A DNA stretch of 41,199 nucleotides. It comes from Hadesarchaea archaeon (GTDB lineage: Archaea > Hadarchaeota > Hadarchaeia > Hadarchaeales > Hadarchaeaceae). Under the pieces are notes generated by a model. It saw only the letters and a program-made list of their open reading frames with translations, made no database searches and had not been told where the DNA came from. The position numbers and the translations under genes are program-made. The DNA lies in the NCBI GenBank assembly GCA_029259175.1, contig JAPDJH010000004.1, positions 187,645 through 228,843 of the forward strand, given 5' to 3'. Shown here piece after piece: positions 2,994 through 13,771 of this stretch. Within the stretch, counting starts at the first letter, position 1, and every line of letters starts with the position of its first letter.

Positions 2994-3862
2994 AGGGATT
3001 TCCGGCTGAAGAGCTGATCGCCAGAGGACACAGGGCGTGTGCTGGCTGCGGGTGTATTCTCGCCCTGCGCCACATTATGAAAGCTCTCGGAAGGAACACG
3101 ATAGTGGTAGCGGTCACCGGCTGTATGGAAGTGGTCACCACGCCCTATCCGCACACGGCTTGGAGAGTCCCGTGGATTCACGCCGCATTCGAAAATGCTG
3201 CGTCGGTGGCTTCCGGTGTAGCGAGAGCGCTAAAGGTACGGGGTCGAGAGGACGTAAAAGTGGTTGCCATCGCTGGAGACGGAGGAACCGCAGACATCGG
3301 ACTTCAAGCGCTCTCCGGTGCGCTGGAACGGAACGAAAACATGCTTTACATCTGTTATGACAACGAGGCCTACGAAAACACAGGAATCCAGAGGAGTGGA
3401 TCTACTCCTCTCTATGCGTGGACCACGACTACTCCCGTGGGGAAGGTGTGGCGCGGAGAAGACAGACCAAAAAAGGACTTGCCCGCGATCGTTGCGGCCC
3501 ACGGTGCTCCGTATGTGGCCACTGCTTCGGTCGCATATCCGCTCGACCTCATCAAAAAGGTCAAGAAGGCGGCAGCGATCCGCGGTCCAACCTATATTCA
3601 CGTGCATGCCACGTGTGTGCCGGGATGGCGGATACCCGAGCATAAAAGCATAGAGGTGGCCAGAATGGCTGTGCTGACGGGTGTATGGATCCTCTATGAA
3701 ATAGAAAACGGAAAAATCCAAGTGACTTTCAAGCCGCCAAAGCGAAAACCTGTGGCAGAATATCTTCGGATGCAGGGACGCTTTAGGCACCTGAGCGACA
3801 AGGAGATCGCTGAAATCCAAAAAATGGTCGACGAACAATGCAAAAAATTCGGTATCGACTAA
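2990..3862 (+). CDS. porB: Pyruvate:ferredoxin oxidoreductase, beta subunit
   Basis: The beta subunit (290 residues) supplies the diphosphate/Mg half of the thiamine diphosphate site and one [4Fe-4S] cluster. Cluster ligands are seen in CAGCGC at 17-22, in TGCMEVV near 44 and in the C-terminal HATCVPGW. The ThDP/Mg motif is [14 protein letters not shown] from residue 95, followed by the usual [18 protein letters not shown]. It starts with GTG inside the alpha-subunit stop (4-bp overlap). Its 3' end overlaps the convergent PLD gene by 4 bp, so the two transcripts may interfere. Confidence 0.93.
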
Positions 3863-5565
3863 TCGATGTGCGCATCATCGATCTTTGTCCACTGGGGCAT
3901 GCCTGGTGTCCAAACAAGAGCGTTTGGCTTGATCCGGCCTTCCGATTTCCATTTCCTCAATACATCCAACGACACAGGCCCGTACTGAACACCGTCCTGA
4001 TACAGATACCAGAGGGAGGGAGTGCTCGGAGGTGAAGGACCCCGCTTTCTAGCACCTAGGTAGTAAAGGAAGAGACCAGTGCCCGCACCGAGCAGTGCCA
4101 CAAGGATCCACAAGTTCAAGAAAGAGGAGGGTGCCTCCAGCTCCCAAGCGTAAGGCGAGTTCCACGCTGTTTCGAAAATGTTTTCTAACTTCGACACTAT
4201 TTCCGGACTCTCAAAGACTATGCCCAGATCCCTGGTCGCTCCCGGAGTCCAACCGTCTACCGTCACCGAGTAGCCCATGTGGGGAGCAAACCAGTTGGCG
4301 CTTCCTACATATGCTCGCTCGCCGTCCACAAAGAGGGTTTTAGCGTGCAGCCACCCGCTTGTCTGGGAGTCCCCGATTTCCACTATGTCTATTATTTTGA
4401 CTTCCACATTCGGAACTCTCGATAACTCGTAGAGAGTCTCTCTGCAATGCTCCCACTCATCAAAATAATGCTGGTCAACCAGCACTTGGACAGGGACCCC
4501 CCGGGCTGCCGCCCTCCTCAGAGCATCGTCCAGGGTTGTGTAACCGCCTCCAGTCGAGTGCTTGTAAAGCATTGCACGAACTCTGGTGGTCGCGTTGTCT
4601 ATGAGGGCAACCAGCGCGCTCTCGGTGTTCGTTATCTTTGGATTGTCGAGTTCGGAAGTCGGAGCGGTTTCAGCAACTTCCATCTGGCGAATAGGCAGAG
4701 CGCCAAAAAATTCAGTCACCGGTACGAATGGATTGGGATCCACTGAATCAATCGCTCCATCATTGTCTGTGTCTTCGTTTTGCGGATCTGTGCCCAAAAG
4801 CGTCTCGATCTCGTTTGTCAATCCATCACCGTCCAGGTCATTTTCAGAGGGGGACCTGAGCGGAGTTCCTCCAGCTGCCACCCAGTCCCGCTCGAACACG
4901 CTCAGCAACACGCCAGTCAGCGCACGGCTCTTCACGTGCAAACCTACCTCCAAACTATCGTTCAATGCGGTCCAACTCCAGTTCTGACTTCCCACATAGG
5001 CTTGCCGATTATCGATTACGAAGTACTTGGCATGGAGCCATCCACCGCTCAGCTCTTTCACGGGCAGCAATTTCAATTCTATATTCTCATTGAGTGCTAG
5101 ATCCGCAGGAACTCGAGAGTAACTCGAACTCTTTTCGTACATTCCTTCATCTAAAATTATTTTTACTTGGACCCCCCTGCGAGCAGCGTTTTTTATTGCC
5201 TCGAGTATGTTTTCGGGAAAAGAACTGGAGATATAGTATGTTTCTACGCAAATCGTTTTTTGCGCCTCTTCGAAGAGACTGGGCCACAGCGAAACAGAGT
5301 TTGGAATATCTGCGCTGTCTAGCTCCGGAGGGGCGCTTTGGTACAGTTCCAGTTCCTTGGCCGAGAGGGGATCCCGATCGATTGGATCGCTGATTCCGTC
5401 CCCATCGGTATCGGTGCTTGTCGGATCCGTACCCAAAATTTGTTCCTGCACATCTGTCCACCCATCCCCGTCCGTGTCCACATTCCCCGGAGCGGCTTCA
5501 GCATTTGATGCAGTTAGTGCCACAAGCAAAACAAAGGCCATCAGTGCCGAGCTTGGTGCCTTCAT
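3859..5565 (-). CDS. Secreted, membrane-anchored two-HKD phospholipase-D-like protein with calcium repeats and GYF_2 domain
   Basis: The 568 residues form an unusual architecture. A signal peptide (about 1-25, cleavage near AEAAPG) is followed by a thrombospondin-3-type DxDGDG repeat block (30-65) and a PLD half with H178, K180 and D185 ([10 protein letters not shown]). A second DxDGDG block (243-278) precedes a second PLD half with H407, K409 and D414 ([10 protein letters not shown]). A transmembrane helix follows at about 483-504 with the basic stop ARKR, then a GYF_2/DUF4339 domain (519-562, [12 protein letters not shown]...WTPGMPQW). Two HKD motifs make a complete active site for phosphodiester or phosphatidyl transfer, predicted to lie outside the cell with the GYF_2 domain inside. 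The repeated layout suggests internal duplication. Substrate is unknown: lipid, nucleic acid and cardiolipin-type transfer are all possible. Confidence 0.85.
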
Positions 5566-5649: not shown

Positions 5650-7848
5650 GTGCCGTGGATAACCAAAATCGAGCTTCGAGGCTTCAAGTCGTTTGGGAAT
5701 ACTAAGGTAGAAATCCCGTTAGCCAAGGGATTAACGGCAATTATTGGCAGAAACGGGCATGGTAAAAGCAACATTGTGGACGCCTTGTGCTTCGTTTTTG
5801 GCGGGAGAAGCGTCAAATCGATGAGGGGAGAGCGCTACACCGACTTCATATACACTCGAAACAATCGCATACTTGCCCCCTACGCTGAAGTCACGATTCA
5901 TATTAACAATCAAGACGGCAAGCTGCCCGTGGGCTCCAACACAGTGGTGATCTCCCGACGAGTTGATCGTACGGGCAGGTGCACGTACCGGATCAACGGA
6001 AAACGAGTGGATCAGAAAGACATCATCGACCTGTTGGCTCCGGTAATGGGAGGTCCCAACGACGTCAACTTTGTGATGCAGGGGCAGATAAAGAAGATTT
6101 TTGCCATGAACTCGGTGGAAAGGCGCCAGATAATCGACCAGCTGGCTGGGGTCTCCGAATACGACGACAGAAAGAAGGAGACCCAAGCTCAACTGGAGCA
6201 CGTAACCAATAATCTCCAGATCCTCCGAACAAGAGCGGAAGAAATCCAGCGGAGAGTCAATATCCTTCGCGAACAAGCCCGGGCCTACGTGACCCACCGG
6301 GACATCAAAAGAGAGCTCGAAAAGCTCGAGGCCGCCTACAATCACAAGAAGGAGAACGAGCTGAAACGACAGCTTCAAAAAATAAACACAAAACTCCGAA
6401 AGAAGAAAGCCGAAGCTGAAAAATGGAAGAACAAAGCCGAGGAGTTGAACAGAAAAGCTGATGTGTGCGAGCAAAAAGCGAATCGGCTTTGGGAGCTCAT
6501 TGCGAAAAAACAGCAAAGCGGAATTTTGACCAAGGTCCGGGGATGGGAAGCCAGTCTCCGGGTCTATCAACGGATGCTGAGAGAGGCCAAAGAAAAACAC
6601 TCGGAGTTGGAAAGAAAACTGGAACAGTTAAAGAACATTGCCCCGCAGGCGACGAGGGTTTCCAGCACAGTGGTCGAATTCCGAAAAACCAAAACGCGGC
6701 TCCAAACACTTCTTTCTCAGCTCTCAAACATCCAGAGCTTGGCCGAAGCCAGGCGTTTAGCGGAAGAGATCGCCCAGCTTTTGCAAGAAATAGAGCGACT
6801 GCTGGACTCCGCGCTATCGGAAATCGGAAAGCGACAGCTAAAAACCGCGGATATCGAAAAGGCCCAGTACGTGTTGCGGTTGACCGCAGAGCTGGAGCTC
6901 CACCAACAAAACATCCGGGAATTCGGGGTCAGAATCGAGGAATTGAAAACAAAACTCCAGCGGGTAAATGAGAAAAGGAAGACTCTCGAAACCGAAATCG
7001 ACTCGCTTAAGGAAAGAAATGAGAAGTTGCAGCAGAAAGCCCACGAGCTGCGCGTAAAAGCTCGCGAGCTGTACAACCGGGCTTTCGAGACAAACAATGC
7101 ACTGAGCGCGCTTGAGAGCAAACGTGCTCAAACGGAACAACGGCTTCGAGAGCTCTCTGAAAGGAAGACTGATGCCGATTATTCGTATTTCATTCGATTG
7201 CCGTTATCCCAGCTCTTGCGGCGAATCGAAGATCTCAATGCACGGCTTAAAGAGCTGGGCGAAGTGAATCCACACGCTTTGGAGGACTTGAAGGCGGAAG
7301 AAGAACGATTTTTGGAGGAAGAAAGAAAGGTGAAAAAGCTTGAAGAAGAACAGCAAAGTTTGTTGGAGAAGCTCCAGCTGTTGGACCAGAGAAAGAAAGA
7401 GGTCTTCATGAATGTGTTCAACGTGGTTGCTGAGAACTTCAGACAAATATTTTATGAGATCTCCGGGGGTTGTCGTGGAGAACTCGTGCTCGAGAATCCG
7501 GAGAACCCGTTCGAAGGCGGGCTGGACATCCGCGCAGACTTTGATGGGGGGCCATCGAGCGGGATCAGCGGCGGCCAAAAAACATTGATTGCGGTGGCAT
7601 TGCTGCTGGCTCTACAACAGTACAGGCCCTCCACCCTGTACGTGCTGGACGAAATGGACGAAAGTCTGGACCCACAAAATCGAAGGCTTGTAGCGAAGCT
7701 GTTGAAAGAGTACTCAAAGAAATCGCAAATTCTTGTTGTAACTCTGCACAACGCCCTAGCGGCTGTTGCGGATCGGGTATTCGGTGTGGTCAAGGACAAC
7801 GGGGTGTCGAAGATCTTCTCAGTCGAATTGACTGGAATGGGGGACTAA
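5650..7848 (+). CDS. smc: SMC-family chromosome ATPase, short and lacking a recognisable hinge
   Basis: The protein pairs with ScpA and ScpB encoded immediately downstream, so it should be the condensin ATPase that folds or loads onto DNA. Both half-heads are intact: Walker A GRNGHGKSN at 33-41, an FVMQGQIKKI Q-loop region near 150, signature SGISGGQK at 637-644, Walker B VLDEMDESLD at 665-674, and a VTLHN switch. The head resembles true SMC (EYDDRKKE, PFEGGLDI, FGVVKDNGVSKI). It has only 732 residues, whereas family members have about 1150-1200. The glycine-rich hinge is not recognisable. A break (NIAPQATRVSST, about 328-341) and a short helical segment (about 345-405) sit between the coiled-coil arms. 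No CxxC hook is present, arguing against Rad50. Start is GTG at 5650. Confidence 0.88.
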   Translation: MPWITKIELRGFKSFGNTKVEIPLAKGLTAIIGRNGHGKSNIVDALCFVFGGRSVKSMRGERYTDFIYTRNNRILAPYAEVTIHINNQDGKLPVGSNTVVISRRVDRTGRCTYRINGKRVDQKDIIDLLAPVMGGPNDVNFVMQGQIKKIFAMNSVERRQIIDQLAGVSEYDDRKKETQAQLEHVTNNLQILRTRAEEIQRRVNILREQARAYVTHRDIKRELEKLEAAYNHKKENELKRQLQKINTKLRKKKAEAEKWKNKAEELNRKADVCEQKANRLWELIAKKQQSGILTKVRGWEASLRVYQRMLREAKEKHSELERKLEQLKNIAPQATRVSSTVVEFRKTKTRLQTLLSQLSNIQSLAEARRLAEEIAQLLQEIERLLDSALSEIGKRQLKTADIEKAQYVLRLTAELELHQQNIREFGVRIEELKTKLQRVNEKRKTLETEIDSLKERNEKLQQKAHELRVKARELYNRAFETNNALSALESKRAQTEQRLRELSERKTDADYSYFIRLPLSQLLRRIEDLNARLKELGEVNPHALEDLKAEEERFLEEERKVKKLEEEQQSLLEKLQLLDQRKKEVFMNVFNVVAENFRQIFYEISGGCRGELVLENPENPFEGGLDIRADFDGGPSSGISGGQKTLIAVALLLALQQYRPSTLYVLDEMDESLDPQNRRLVAKLLKEYSKKSQILVVTLHNALAAVADRVFGVVKDNGVSKIFSVELTGMGD

Positions 7849-7851
7849 AAA

Positions 7852-8526
7852 ATGGAGGTAAACGAACAACCGATAATGGAGCTTGTTGAATTAGTACGAA
7901 ATCACAAGGTCGATCCATGGGAAATCGACATAAGGAAAATAGTGGACATTTACGGGGAAAAACTCCTTGTTGAACCCATCACCGATATCAGGACGCCCGC
8001 ACGAGTCCTTCACTCCGCAGCAACTTTGCTGCGAATCAAATCAGAGCATGCATTGAATGGAAATGGAAGCAAAGGGCTTGTCAGCGAAGAACTGGAGGAA
8101 CTGCTGGACCTGGATATTCCAAATCTCGGCGAATTGACCATCGAATACTTTGTTCCCCGGAAGCTCACCCTAGAGGATTTGCTTGGAGCCCTTCGCGAAG
8201 TGATCAAGGAAATGCCAAAAAGAAAGGAAAAGATACCAAAACGCTTGGACAAGCTCAGAATTGATGTTGCGAAAGATCCAGATGTCCGGCTCGAACAAAT
8301 GATGGAGGCGTTGCTGGAAAAGATTAGAGCCATCAAAAGAGAAGGAAAATCCGTTTCACTGTTCTCGCTTGTGAAAGAAAGGAAGCGAGGGGCTGTCGTT
8401 TTAACGTTTTACCTGCTCCTTTCCTTGTATGCTGAAAGAAAAGTTATCTTAGAACAGCCCGAGATGTTCGGAGACATCGTAGTGAAGACACCGGAGGAAA
8501 ACACTCATGGGAATGAGGGAGGATAG
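7852..8526 (+). CDS. scpA: Segregation and condensation protein ScpA (kleisin)
   Basis: This 224-residue kleisin bridges the two SMC heads. The N-terminal opening MELVELVRNHKVDPWEIDI and the ARVLHSAATLLRIKSEHAL helix are typical ScpA features for contacting the SMC neck. The C-terminal winged-helix segment (FSLVKERKRGAVVLTFYLLLSL) should bind the opposite head. It begins 3 bases after the smc stop and overlaps scpB by 20 bases, so all three subunits are likely translated from one message. Confidence 0.9.
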   Translation: MEVNEQPIMELVELVRNHKVDPWEIDIRKIVDIYGEKLLVEPITDIRTPARVLHSAATLLRIKSEHALNGNGSKGLVSEELEELLDLDIPNLGELTIEYFVPRKLTLEDLLGALREVIKEMPKRKEKIPKRLDKLRIDVAKDPDVRLEQMMEALLEKIRAIKREGKSVSLFSLVKERKRGAVVLTFYLLLSLYAERKVILEQPEMFGDIVVKTPEENTHGNEGG

Positions 8527-9016
8527 GAAACTGCTGGAAGCGGCGCTTTATGCTGCAGACCACCCCCTGACCATTCAAGAGCTCAGAGAAACGCTGGGGC
8601 TCAAATCCGAAACTTACGTAAAGCGATTGATTGAGGAGGTTCGGGAAAGCCTCCGGCGGCGACAAAGCCCTTTCGAACTGAGAGAAACGGGCGGTGAAGC
8701 GTATTCCATCCGGCTAAAACGTGAGATATCAGAGAGACTGGGCCGCTTGGTTCCAAAGCTGAAGATATCGAGAGGGGCGCTAAAGACCCTAGCATTCATC
8801 GCTTACAAGCAAAACATCACGCTGGCCCAACTGGCGGAGGTGCGGGGGAGCAGGACCTACGAGCACGTGCGGCAACTCATAGCTGCTGGCTTTGTGGAGG
8901 CAAAACGCTTCGGCAAGACCCGTGCACTCCGGACGTCGCCAAAATTTGCGAGTTATTTCGGATTTGAAGACGATATAGATTTGATCTCGGAGAAACTGGA
9001 AGAACTGTTGAAGTGA
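8507..9016 (+). CDS. scpB: Segregation and condensation protein ScpB
   Basis: A 169-residue protein of two winged-helix domains. [18 protein letters not shown] at the N-terminus and the [25 protein letters not shown] stretch from about residue 86 (quoted in part: [13 protein letters not shown]) are diagnostic of ScpB, which binds the centre of the ScpA kleisin as a dimer. It starts at the ATG of ATGGGAATGAGG inside the end of scpA. The following gene, rps8e, has its own TATA box, so the condensin operon probably ends here. Confidence 0.9.
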
Positions 9017-11109: not shown

Positions 11110-11352
11110 ATGAAACTTTTGGGAAAAGTCTTGCATTTGGGAGTCAAAGGGCCTATACTGAAGGCTTCTTTTCCCCCAAAAGTCGGTCAACCGGTGTTTA
11201 ATTCAAAAAAGAAGCGGATGGGAAACATTTATGACCTCTTCGGCCCCGTAAAGTCCCCGTATGTTATTATAAAACCGGCTTCCGGCGTCTCTGGGGAAAA
11301 GTTGGTAGGTGTTTCCCTATATATTATGGAAGAAGGAAAGAGGAGGAGATAA
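11110..11352 (+). CDS. gar1: H/ACA ribonucleoprotein subunit Gar1
   Basis: An 80-residue archaeal Gar1, the beta-barrel subunit that binds the Cbf5 pseudouridine synthase and helps load and release RNA in H/ACA particles. Typical elements are [19 protein letters not shown] and SPYVIIKP. The ATG at 11110, 9 bases after GGGAGGA, is preferred over an in-frame TTG at 11092 that overlaps the ribosome binding site. tfb begins 1 base after the gar1 stop, so they form one operon; gar1-tfb adjacency is common in euryarchaea. Confidence 0.9.
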
Positions 11353-11353
11353 A

Positions 11354-13771
11354 ATGGCAGAAGAAGAGACCAAATGCCCGATTTGCGGCGGGACGGTATT
11401 CATACGAGACTATGACAGAGGAGAGACGACCTGTAAGAAATGCGGGTACGTGATCGACGAGCGCATGATCGACCTCGGGCCCGAGTGGCGGGCTTTCGAT
11501 GAAGAGCAGCGGGAGCGCCGAGGAAGGACTGGAGCTCCAATGACGCTAAGTGTTGATTATTCTGAACCGGTGATGATCGAGAAGGACGGTTTAGTTAGAA
11601 TAGTAAAGATCGGTGAATTTGTTGATTCATTGCTAGCAAAAGCTAAGGAAGTAAAGAGAGAAGCCAATGTGGAGATCGCTAGAGTCACGGGTTACAAGAC
11701 GCTTGTGTTTGACGATAACTACAAGATCCGGTGGAAACCCATCGATTACGTCTCCAGACATGAAATCGAAGAAGAACTCTACGAAGTGGAGCTGGAAACG
11801 GGCCGCAAAGTCAGGGTAACGGCTTCTCACAGTCTTTACACGGTGAGAGACAACGAGGTGATCCCAATAGAGGCGAAAACGCTACGCCCGGGAGACTTCG
11901 TTGTGGCTCCCAGGACTTTGCCGCTTTCTCCGACTCCGCTGAGAGATCTGAATCTGGCTGAGGAGACGATGAAGATAAGTGGCTCCGAGTTTACTGTTTG
12001 CAAAATTCCGGCGCACGTTTTTGAGAAACTCAAACATATGCGGGGCCTCAAAGACTGGAAAAAGCGCGCGAGGTTGCCTCTGAGCCTGTTTCTCCAAGTA
12101 TATGATGGCGAAAACGGTGGGGAGATCTCAATAAAGCCACGGGGATCCCGAAACGGGCTTCCATTGAAAGTTGGAATCGACGAAAGACTCGCGGAATTCT
12201 TGGGCTTCTACGCAAGTGAGGGGTGTGTCGCCAACGACAGCATAAGGCTCACGTTTGGACCCGAGGAAGAAGAATGCGCGAGGAGGGTGGCGAAGCTAAT
12301 ACGAGATCTCTTCGAGCTTCGACCGCGTGTTACTCGAGAAAAACATTCGATTGTAGTAGAAGTGGACAGCAAGATGCTCGTGGTGTTTCTCACGGATATT
12401 CTCGGAGCAGGACGCAACGCCAGGGAGAAAAGAGTTCCACCGGTTGTTCTTTCGGCCTCGGAAGAAGTCAAGCGGGCCTTCTTAGACGCGTACATTCGGG
12501 GTGACGGTTGTCTCTATCAACACCCGGAGGAGAAAGAGGACTGGCGCCCCCTTGTACACCTATACACCAGTTCGGTGAGTCCGGAGCTCAGCAGCGACCT
12601 AATGTATCTCTATCTCCAGCTTGGGGTGATGGCCGGGTATTTCGAAGAAGAGATTCCGCCGCACACCATCCAGAGCACCGGGCAAAAAGTTGTTGGGTGC
12701 AAAGTCACCGGAACGCGAATAACAAGCCCGGATATGGTGGCGAAGCTGGATTTTGTTCAAGTAGAGCGAAGGAAAAGAAAAGCTCCGATTGAAAATTTGA
12801 TTCCGGCTCCTTGGAAGTACCGCAGGGAGTGGAAGGGAAGAAGGCGGTTGAGAATATCGCGAGAACTAGCGCTGCGTATAGCTGAGAAGTACGGGGATGA
12901 AAAACTAAAGCGGCTCGCGGAGAGCGACTTTGTATTCCTAAGAGTTAGAAAAATCCGTAAGGTGAAGCCAACCACCTCGCACACATACGATTTGACAATT
13001 CTGGGCCACGAGAATTTCGTCGGAGGGCGGGGCGGGGTGTGTCTGAGAGACACGATCCATGACAAAGGTTTGTCAACCATGATTGACTGGCGCGACCGGG
13101 ACTCCCACGGGAAGGACTTGACGCCCAAGCGGCGCGCACAGATCTACCGGTTGCGGAAGTGGCAGCGGCGGATTCGGGTGTCCGATGCGACCGAACGCAA
13201 CCTAGCCTTTGCACTCTCCGAAATCGACCGGATGGCCTCCCACCTATCGCTCCCGCGCAACGTCCGAGAAACGGCCTCGCTGATTTACAGAAAGGCTGTG
13301 GAGGAGAGGCTGATTCGCGGGCGATCGATCGAAGGGGTTGCGGCCGCGGCGCTGTACGCGGCCTGTCGGGAATGTAAGGTGCCGCGCACGCTGGATGAAA
13401 TCGCGGAGGTGGCGCGAGTCAGTAAGAAAGAGATCGGGCGGAGTTACCGGTTCATCGCGCGCGAACTGCTCATCCATCTGCGTCCGACTAGTCCCATCGA
13501 TTATATCCCGCGCTTCGCGTCGGAGCTTGGGCTGAGCGGAGAAGTGCAATCGAAAGCGATCGAGCTGTTAAAGGAGGCACAGGCGAGAGGGCTGACCTCT
13601 GGGCGTGGGCCAACGGGGGTGGCGGCCGCTGCGATTTACATCGCCAGCGTGCTGTGCGGAGAGCGGAGGACCCAGCGCGATGTGGCAGATGTGGCGAGGG
13701 TTACTGAGGTCACCGTGAGGAATCGCTATAAGGAACTTTGCGAGAAGCTGGGGCTGGACGTAGAGCTTTAG
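11354..13771 (+). CDS. tfb: Transcription initiation factor TFB, intein-containing precursor
   Basis: The 805-residue precursor comprises a 304-residue TFB split by a 501-residue intein. The N-extein has the zinc ribbon (C8, C11, C27, C30) and the B-finger ([12 protein letters not shown], to residue 65). The C-extein resumes [13 protein letters not shown] and carries the two cyclin-like repeats that bind TBP-DNA. The intein sits in the B-finger, the part that enters the RNA polymerase active-site cleft, so unspliced protein should be inactive. The ATG at 11354 follows GGAGGAGAT; the upstream extension of the frame lies within gar1. The two repeats are marked by [12 protein letters not shown] and [12 protein letters not shown]. 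Confidence 0.95.
11549..13051 (+). mobile_element. Intein with LAGLIDADG homing endonuclease in TFB
   Basis: A 501-residue intein runs from Ser1 (SVDYSEPV) to an Asp (GGVCLRD), followed by extein Thr. The block B splicing motif TASH lies at intein residues 91-94. The endonuclease blocks LGFYASEG (about 219-226) and [10 protein letters not shown] (about 311-320) retain their acidic catalytic residues, so it could still cut. The C-terminus reads Arg-Asp where His-Asn is usual; both the penultimate His and the cyclising Asn are changed. The boundaries are fixed by joining MTL directly to TIHDKG, which restores normal TFB. Confidence 0.9.

Follow-up and report, generated by a model that had tools for sequence, protein, structure and literature searches.

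The smc-scpA-scpB operon

The window, that is, the whole 41,199-nucleotide stretch of DNA that was analysed, carries an smc gene at positions 5650-7848 of the forward strand, with a GTG start and 732 codons that encode both halves of an ATPase head. The genes scpA and scpB lie directly 3ʹ of smc, and the fourth gene, after scpB, was assigned to ribosomal protein S8e with Pfam. The parts of the operon are as follows.

5650..6150, + strand: SMC N-terminal head half, residues 1-167, with Walker A GRNGHGKSN, inside the SMC_N match
6151..6639, + strand: SMC N-terminal arm, residues 168-330, about 160 residues, with AlphaFold2 helices 168-288 and 291-330
6643..6729, + strand: tip helix 1, residues 332-360, with F/L conserved at 344, 351, 354, and 358
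6739..6831, + strand: tip helix 2, residues 364-394, a candidate dimerisation surface
6844..7374, + strand: SMC C-terminal arm, residues 399-575, from the AlphaFold2 secondary structure
7375..7848, + strand: SMC C-terminal head half, with signature SGGQ and Walker B YVLDEMDESLD, from Pfam and the alignment
7852..8526, + strand: scpA, kleisin of 224 aa (PF02616, 2.1e-12; Rad21_Rec8, 3.6e-5)
8507..9016, + strand: scpB, kite protein of 169 aa (PF04079, 6.1e-34)

The Pfam family SMC_N matched residues 4-720 of the SMC with an E value of 6e-62, which, together with the open reading frame, bears out the first-pass annotation of an SMC that is short at 732 aa and has both head halves intact. Walker A, signature, and Walker B motifs were all present in the ATPase head. 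The N-terminal head half contained columns that were invariant in 22 orthologues, and its AlphaFold2 pLDDT was about 85-90 over most of its length. When the full SMC model was compared with known structures, it matched the Smc head of Pyrococcus yayanosii (5xei) with an E value of 8.3e-37. The best families of the protein were two NCBIfam SMC equivalogs (1.5e-141 and 1.5e-128), both scoring under the full-length cut-offs, as expected because the protein is short. The signature SGGQ had been taken as an altered ATP signature; this oddity was rejected, as SGGQ and SGGE alternate among the orthologues, and the classical signature of ABC ATPases is itself LSGGQ.

The genes for the kleisin ScpA and the kite protein ScpB were both found beside smc. 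ScpA matched archaeal ScpA-N (5.3e-10) and bacterial ScpA-C (7.4e-4) in the PDB, and ScpB matched archaeal ScpB (6juv, 4.2e-34). Short SMCs beside scpAB were also found in relatives, and the ORF lists of several of these (e.g., L047, L049, L050, and L053) repeated the gene order smc-scpA-scpB-rpS8e. The adjacent and co-directional smc, scpA, and scpB are the only SMC-ScpAB set of the genome, in agreement with their proposed identity as the chromosomal condensin.

A search of the genome for a second, full-length smc returned only an even shorter, SMC5/6-like SMC in an operon of its own. This hinge-less protein of about 630 aa is encoded about 20 kb upstream of the window (L036:4817-8164; G000:C2), and its family profile gave E values of 1.4e-44 for SMC5, 6e-39 for SMC6, and 2e-32 for archaeal Smc. 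The next gene was Nse4-like (Nse4B in the PDB, 2.6e-6; yeast Nse4, 1.9e-4), with Nse4_C detected in 15 of 16 members, and the third gene was weakly MAGE/Nse1-like (E 0.019). Fifteen of the sampled Hadarchaeales genomes yielded the three genes together (relatives of the operon: L055 and L138-L153). The operon is conserved across Hadarchaeales and resembles a prokaryotic version of the eukaryotic SMC5/6 complex; archaeal SMCs related to SMC5/6 have been described before (PMC9389158).

Absence of the hinge and structure of the arm tip

The SMC had been described as having neither a glycine-rich hinge nor a CxxC zinc hook, and both absences were confirmed. The SMC_hinge family (PF06470) was unmatched in the 732-aa protein at E ≤ 1, and the same Pfam library detected the hinge at 5.8e-26 in a hinge-bearing relative from the same phylum (L037:3477-6899), which served as a positive control. 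CxxC occurred in 0 of 22 aligned orthologues, indicating that there is no zinc hook. When whole genomes were searched in six frames, PF06470 was found nowhere in the window's own genome and in none of 27 Hadarchaeales genomes, that one included. It was present in 25 of 33 further archaea that were searched, and all three archaeal controls, namely Methanocaldococcus, Haloferax, and Methanosarcina, were positive. The single other Hadarchaeota genome examined (G027) encodes a hinge-bearing SMC of 1140 aa. The window's genome is a draft of 23 contigs that is about 91% complete, and a missed hinge was ruled out because the relatives share the trait. The middle region of the SMC likewise gave no hinge match in profile-profile comparison: the probability was only 0.1-0.4% against hinge alignments, and 59-94% against ordinary SMC arm segments. 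The Hadarchaeales SMC is truly without a hinge.

The AlphaFold2 model of the full protein (pLDDT 81.8) comprised a normal head, arms of residues 168-330 and 399-575, and two extra helices at the tip, spanning 332-358 and 364-393. Region 285-440 folded alone gave the same four helices with a pLDDT of 91.3, and tip helix 2 reached about 94 in this tip model. The models were single-chain and used an input alignment of 22 sequences. The break near residues 328-341 and the helical segment at 345-405 pointed out in the first-pass annotation match the predicted helices 332-360 and 364-394, and the shortened arms that it described are visible in the model, with the separate helical element at their tip. 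The arms in Hadarchaeales measure about 160 residues only when the tip helices are left out of the count, compared to 344 residues in B. subtilis, and counted in this way they are close to the minor mode of arm length at 163 residues (PMC5344682). In the model, a loop at residues 505-518 of the C-terminal arm may act as a joint.

Three conserved hydrophobic heptad positions were found in tip helix 2 (364-394), compared to 0-2 in all 46 arm segments. A two-stranded coiled coil requires two such positions; with three, tip helix 2 probably has more than one packing partner, and its wide conserved hydrophobic face suggests a replacement dimer interface. The mean sequence entropy of the tip was equal to that of the distal arms, with few positions standing out. 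A fold search with the tip returned nothing significant (best E 0.03), so the tip corresponds to no known hinge or hook, and the result was compatible with the plain end of an antiparallel hairpin. The PDB chains that the tip profile matched were designed or generic coiled coils, and these matches were discarded, as they showed no specific relationship.

Distribution and origin of hinge-less SMCs

Complete SMCs of 725-772 aa were found in 22 species of the order Hadarchaeales, which are small-genome archaea, and the 21 homologues other than the window's SMC were 34-42% identical to it. A single-protein query of named genomes found no relative, but an alignment query did return relatives, including Candidatus Hadarchaeum yellowstonense. 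In a maximum-likelihood tree of head sequences, the Hadarchaeales SMCs were monophyletic (100/99) and grouped within archaeal SMC, which places them in the SMC family by descent. They were nested with hinge-bearing archaeal SMCs, and a hinge-bearing SMC of the same phylum was among those around the clade. This nesting of short SMCs among hinge-bearing ones indicates descent from a canonical archaeal condensin that had a hinge and subsequently lost it. The short-armed archaeal SMCs L038-L044 (827-856 aa), whose hosts are probably DPANN, also have short arms but keep the hinge.

A cluster of hinge-less SMCs in oceanic Actinomycetes, known from sequences of an ocean gene catalogue, was reported in 2025 (PMC12153180). 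These proteins and the Hadarchaeales SMCs have in common SMC heads and the lack of both hinge and CxxC; however, the cluster is bacterial and ScpA is unmentioned in that report, whereas the Hadarchaeales SMCs are archaeal, genome-resolved, encoded beside scpAB, and fixed in the order. In the open-access literature searched, we found no report of an archaeal hinge-less SMC, none of one encoded next to scpAB, and none of a lost hinge in Patescibacteria.

Short hinge-less SMCs of 711-806 aa were also found in bacteria, with nine on one Patescibacteria branch, three in Pelagibacteraceae, and one in SAR86 (L057, L059, L061, L064, L066, L067, L069, L074, L110, L058, L060, L063, and L065). PF06470 was unmatched in the genomes of all 13, and ScpA and ScpB were both present in 12 of these genomes, the SAR86 genome having neither. 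All were located on the bacterial side of the head tree, with Patescibacteria and Pelagibacteraceae on separate branches, and the SAR86 protein paired with a 1171-aa SMC of Methylobacter. This placement points to at least three, and probably four, losses of the hinge. Homology of the Hadarchaeales tip to the bacterial hinge-less SMCs was considered and dropped: hhalign gave 81%, but arbitrary arm segments gave 59-94%, and the score was no evidence of a relationship.

The hinge scored above the cut-off in only 5 of 192 sampled Patescibacteria genomes, a hinge-lacking fraction that does not equal the fraction with a hinge-less SMC because, among 96 of those genomes, an SMC was clearly matched in only 32. 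PF06470 was found in 0 of 58 Pelagibacterales, which is weak alone, as the alphaproteobacterial control Caulobacter, whose SMC is full-length, was also negative; the Pelagibacterales case thus rests on short length and alignment. We give even chances to the broader proposal that SMC condensins lost the hinge repeatedly and independently in Hadarchaeales, Patescibacteria, Pelagibacteraceae, and SAR86, its place being taken each time by a minimal helical tip, which either dimerises or even works without dimerising. If this is true, condensin in nature could do without the hinge fold and the DNA-binding and gate functions proposed for it.

A possible tip-joined ring and its alternatives

The Hadarchaeales system resembles canonical SMC-ScpAB of B. 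subtilis and Pyrococcus in its ATPase heads, ScpA kleisin, ScpB kite protein, operon, and head phylogeny, and differs in having a two-helix tip instead of a hinge. We consider it fairly probable that it is an SMC-ScpAB condensin of canonical descent that has lost the hinge and forms a smaller ring that the two-helix element holds together at the tip. The hinge domain disappeared, and the arms became shorter, before Hadarchaeales diversified. In the homodimer, the arms would be joined through the two-helix element (332-394) by helical packing, and the joint would probably be a four-helix bundle made of two hairpins. The two heads would be bridged by ScpA, so that a smaller closed ring could still form, and ATP-driven head engagement would load and move DNA; in ATP-dependent head engagement as in bridging by ScpA, the complex is expected to behave like SMC-ScpAB because its heads, kleisin, and kite protein are those of that family. 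DNA would then be handled without the hinge DNA-binding surface or the hinge channel. The membership of ScpB in the complex is uncertain because six archaeal ScpA proteins were tested and none bound its own ScpB (PMC7055376).

By analogy with engineered proteins, the simplest reading is a ring of reduced size in which a helical tip makes the closure. B. subtilis grew normally when the Rad50 zinc hook was put in place of the Smc hinge, and the authors regarded the fold of the dimerisation domain as irrelevant (PMC5344682); Rad50 was likewise functional with an SMC hinge (PMC6969161). The B. subtilis swap suggests that the particular fold used for dimerisation may be of little importance. The engineered B. 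subtilis Smc (PMC5344682) is similar to the Hadarchaeales SMC as a condensin with an unrelated dimerisation element, which is a candidate one here, but it is artificial and uses a zinc hook, whereas the Hadarchaeales SMC is without CxxC.

The arm tips might instead never dimerise and form a plain coiled-coil turn, with the monomers held via ATP-engaged heads and ScpA/ScpB in an open clamp rather than a ring. A tip without a recognisable dimerisation fold, with an entropy not below that of the arms and with fold matches to generic coiled coils, agrees with such a clamp; we nevertheless regard it as unlikely, considering the conserved F/L pattern and, on tip helix 2, the unusually wide hydrophobic face, both seen across the order, and the fact that B. 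subtilis Smc becomes a non-functional protein when hinge dimerisation is abolished (PMC5344682). The tip face would be equally able to bind a partner as itself, so a hinge or other dimerisation partner could be supplied in trans by a separate tip-binding protein, which is improbable given the absence of PF06470 from six frames of the 27 genomes and of any gene after scpB, up to the ribosomal one, that might encode such a partner.

It is highly improbable that the protein is a short SMC-like repair ATPase of the Rad50, RecN, or ClsN/ASRP kind that is merely located beside scpAB. RecN and ASRPs (ClsN and Sph) are similar to it in length and in lacking an SMC hinge, and there were weak RecN, Rad50, and ASRP family scores, all far under the cut-offs (NCBIfam: 89.2 bits for ASRP NF045487, which requires ≥300 bits, and 87.7 bits for RecN TIGR00634, which requires ≥407.85 bits). 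However, the best families were the two SMC equivalogs, the heads fell inside archaeal SMC in the tree, and the linkage to scpA and scpB was kept in relatives. Most ASRPs carry a zinc hook (PMC9389158), which is absent here, as the 22 sequences lacked CxxC, and no Mre11 was adjacent, the neighbours being ScpA, ScpB, and ribosomal protein S8e. That the gene is a normal smc distorted by an assembly or deletion error, conceivable in a draft of 23 contigs, is refuted by the 21 complete homologues of the same architecture and can practically be dismissed.

In models of SMC action, dimerisation, DNA binding, and the opening of a gate are all assigned to the hinge. In a lineage whose only SMC-ScpAB is hinge-less, these roles are limited to what a 60-residue helical tip can do. 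This condensin offers a small natural system for testing the essential parts of a loop-extruding machine, including the need for a hinge, and the laboratory swap of hook for hinge in B. subtilis is now matched by an evolutionary outcome.

Two other genes of the window were also noted. The TFIIB gene at 11309-13771 (+ strand, 820 aa) is split by an intein that carries LAGLIDADG motifs; at the corresponding place in a relative (L053:11903-12823) there is an apparent TFB of 306 aa, judged by position and first residues. The gene at 3859-5565 (− strand) encodes a secreted-looking protein of 568 aa, which, judged by eye, appears to consist of two phospholipase-D-like halves together with repeats of a calcium-binding type and, at the C-terminus, a GYF-like stretch.
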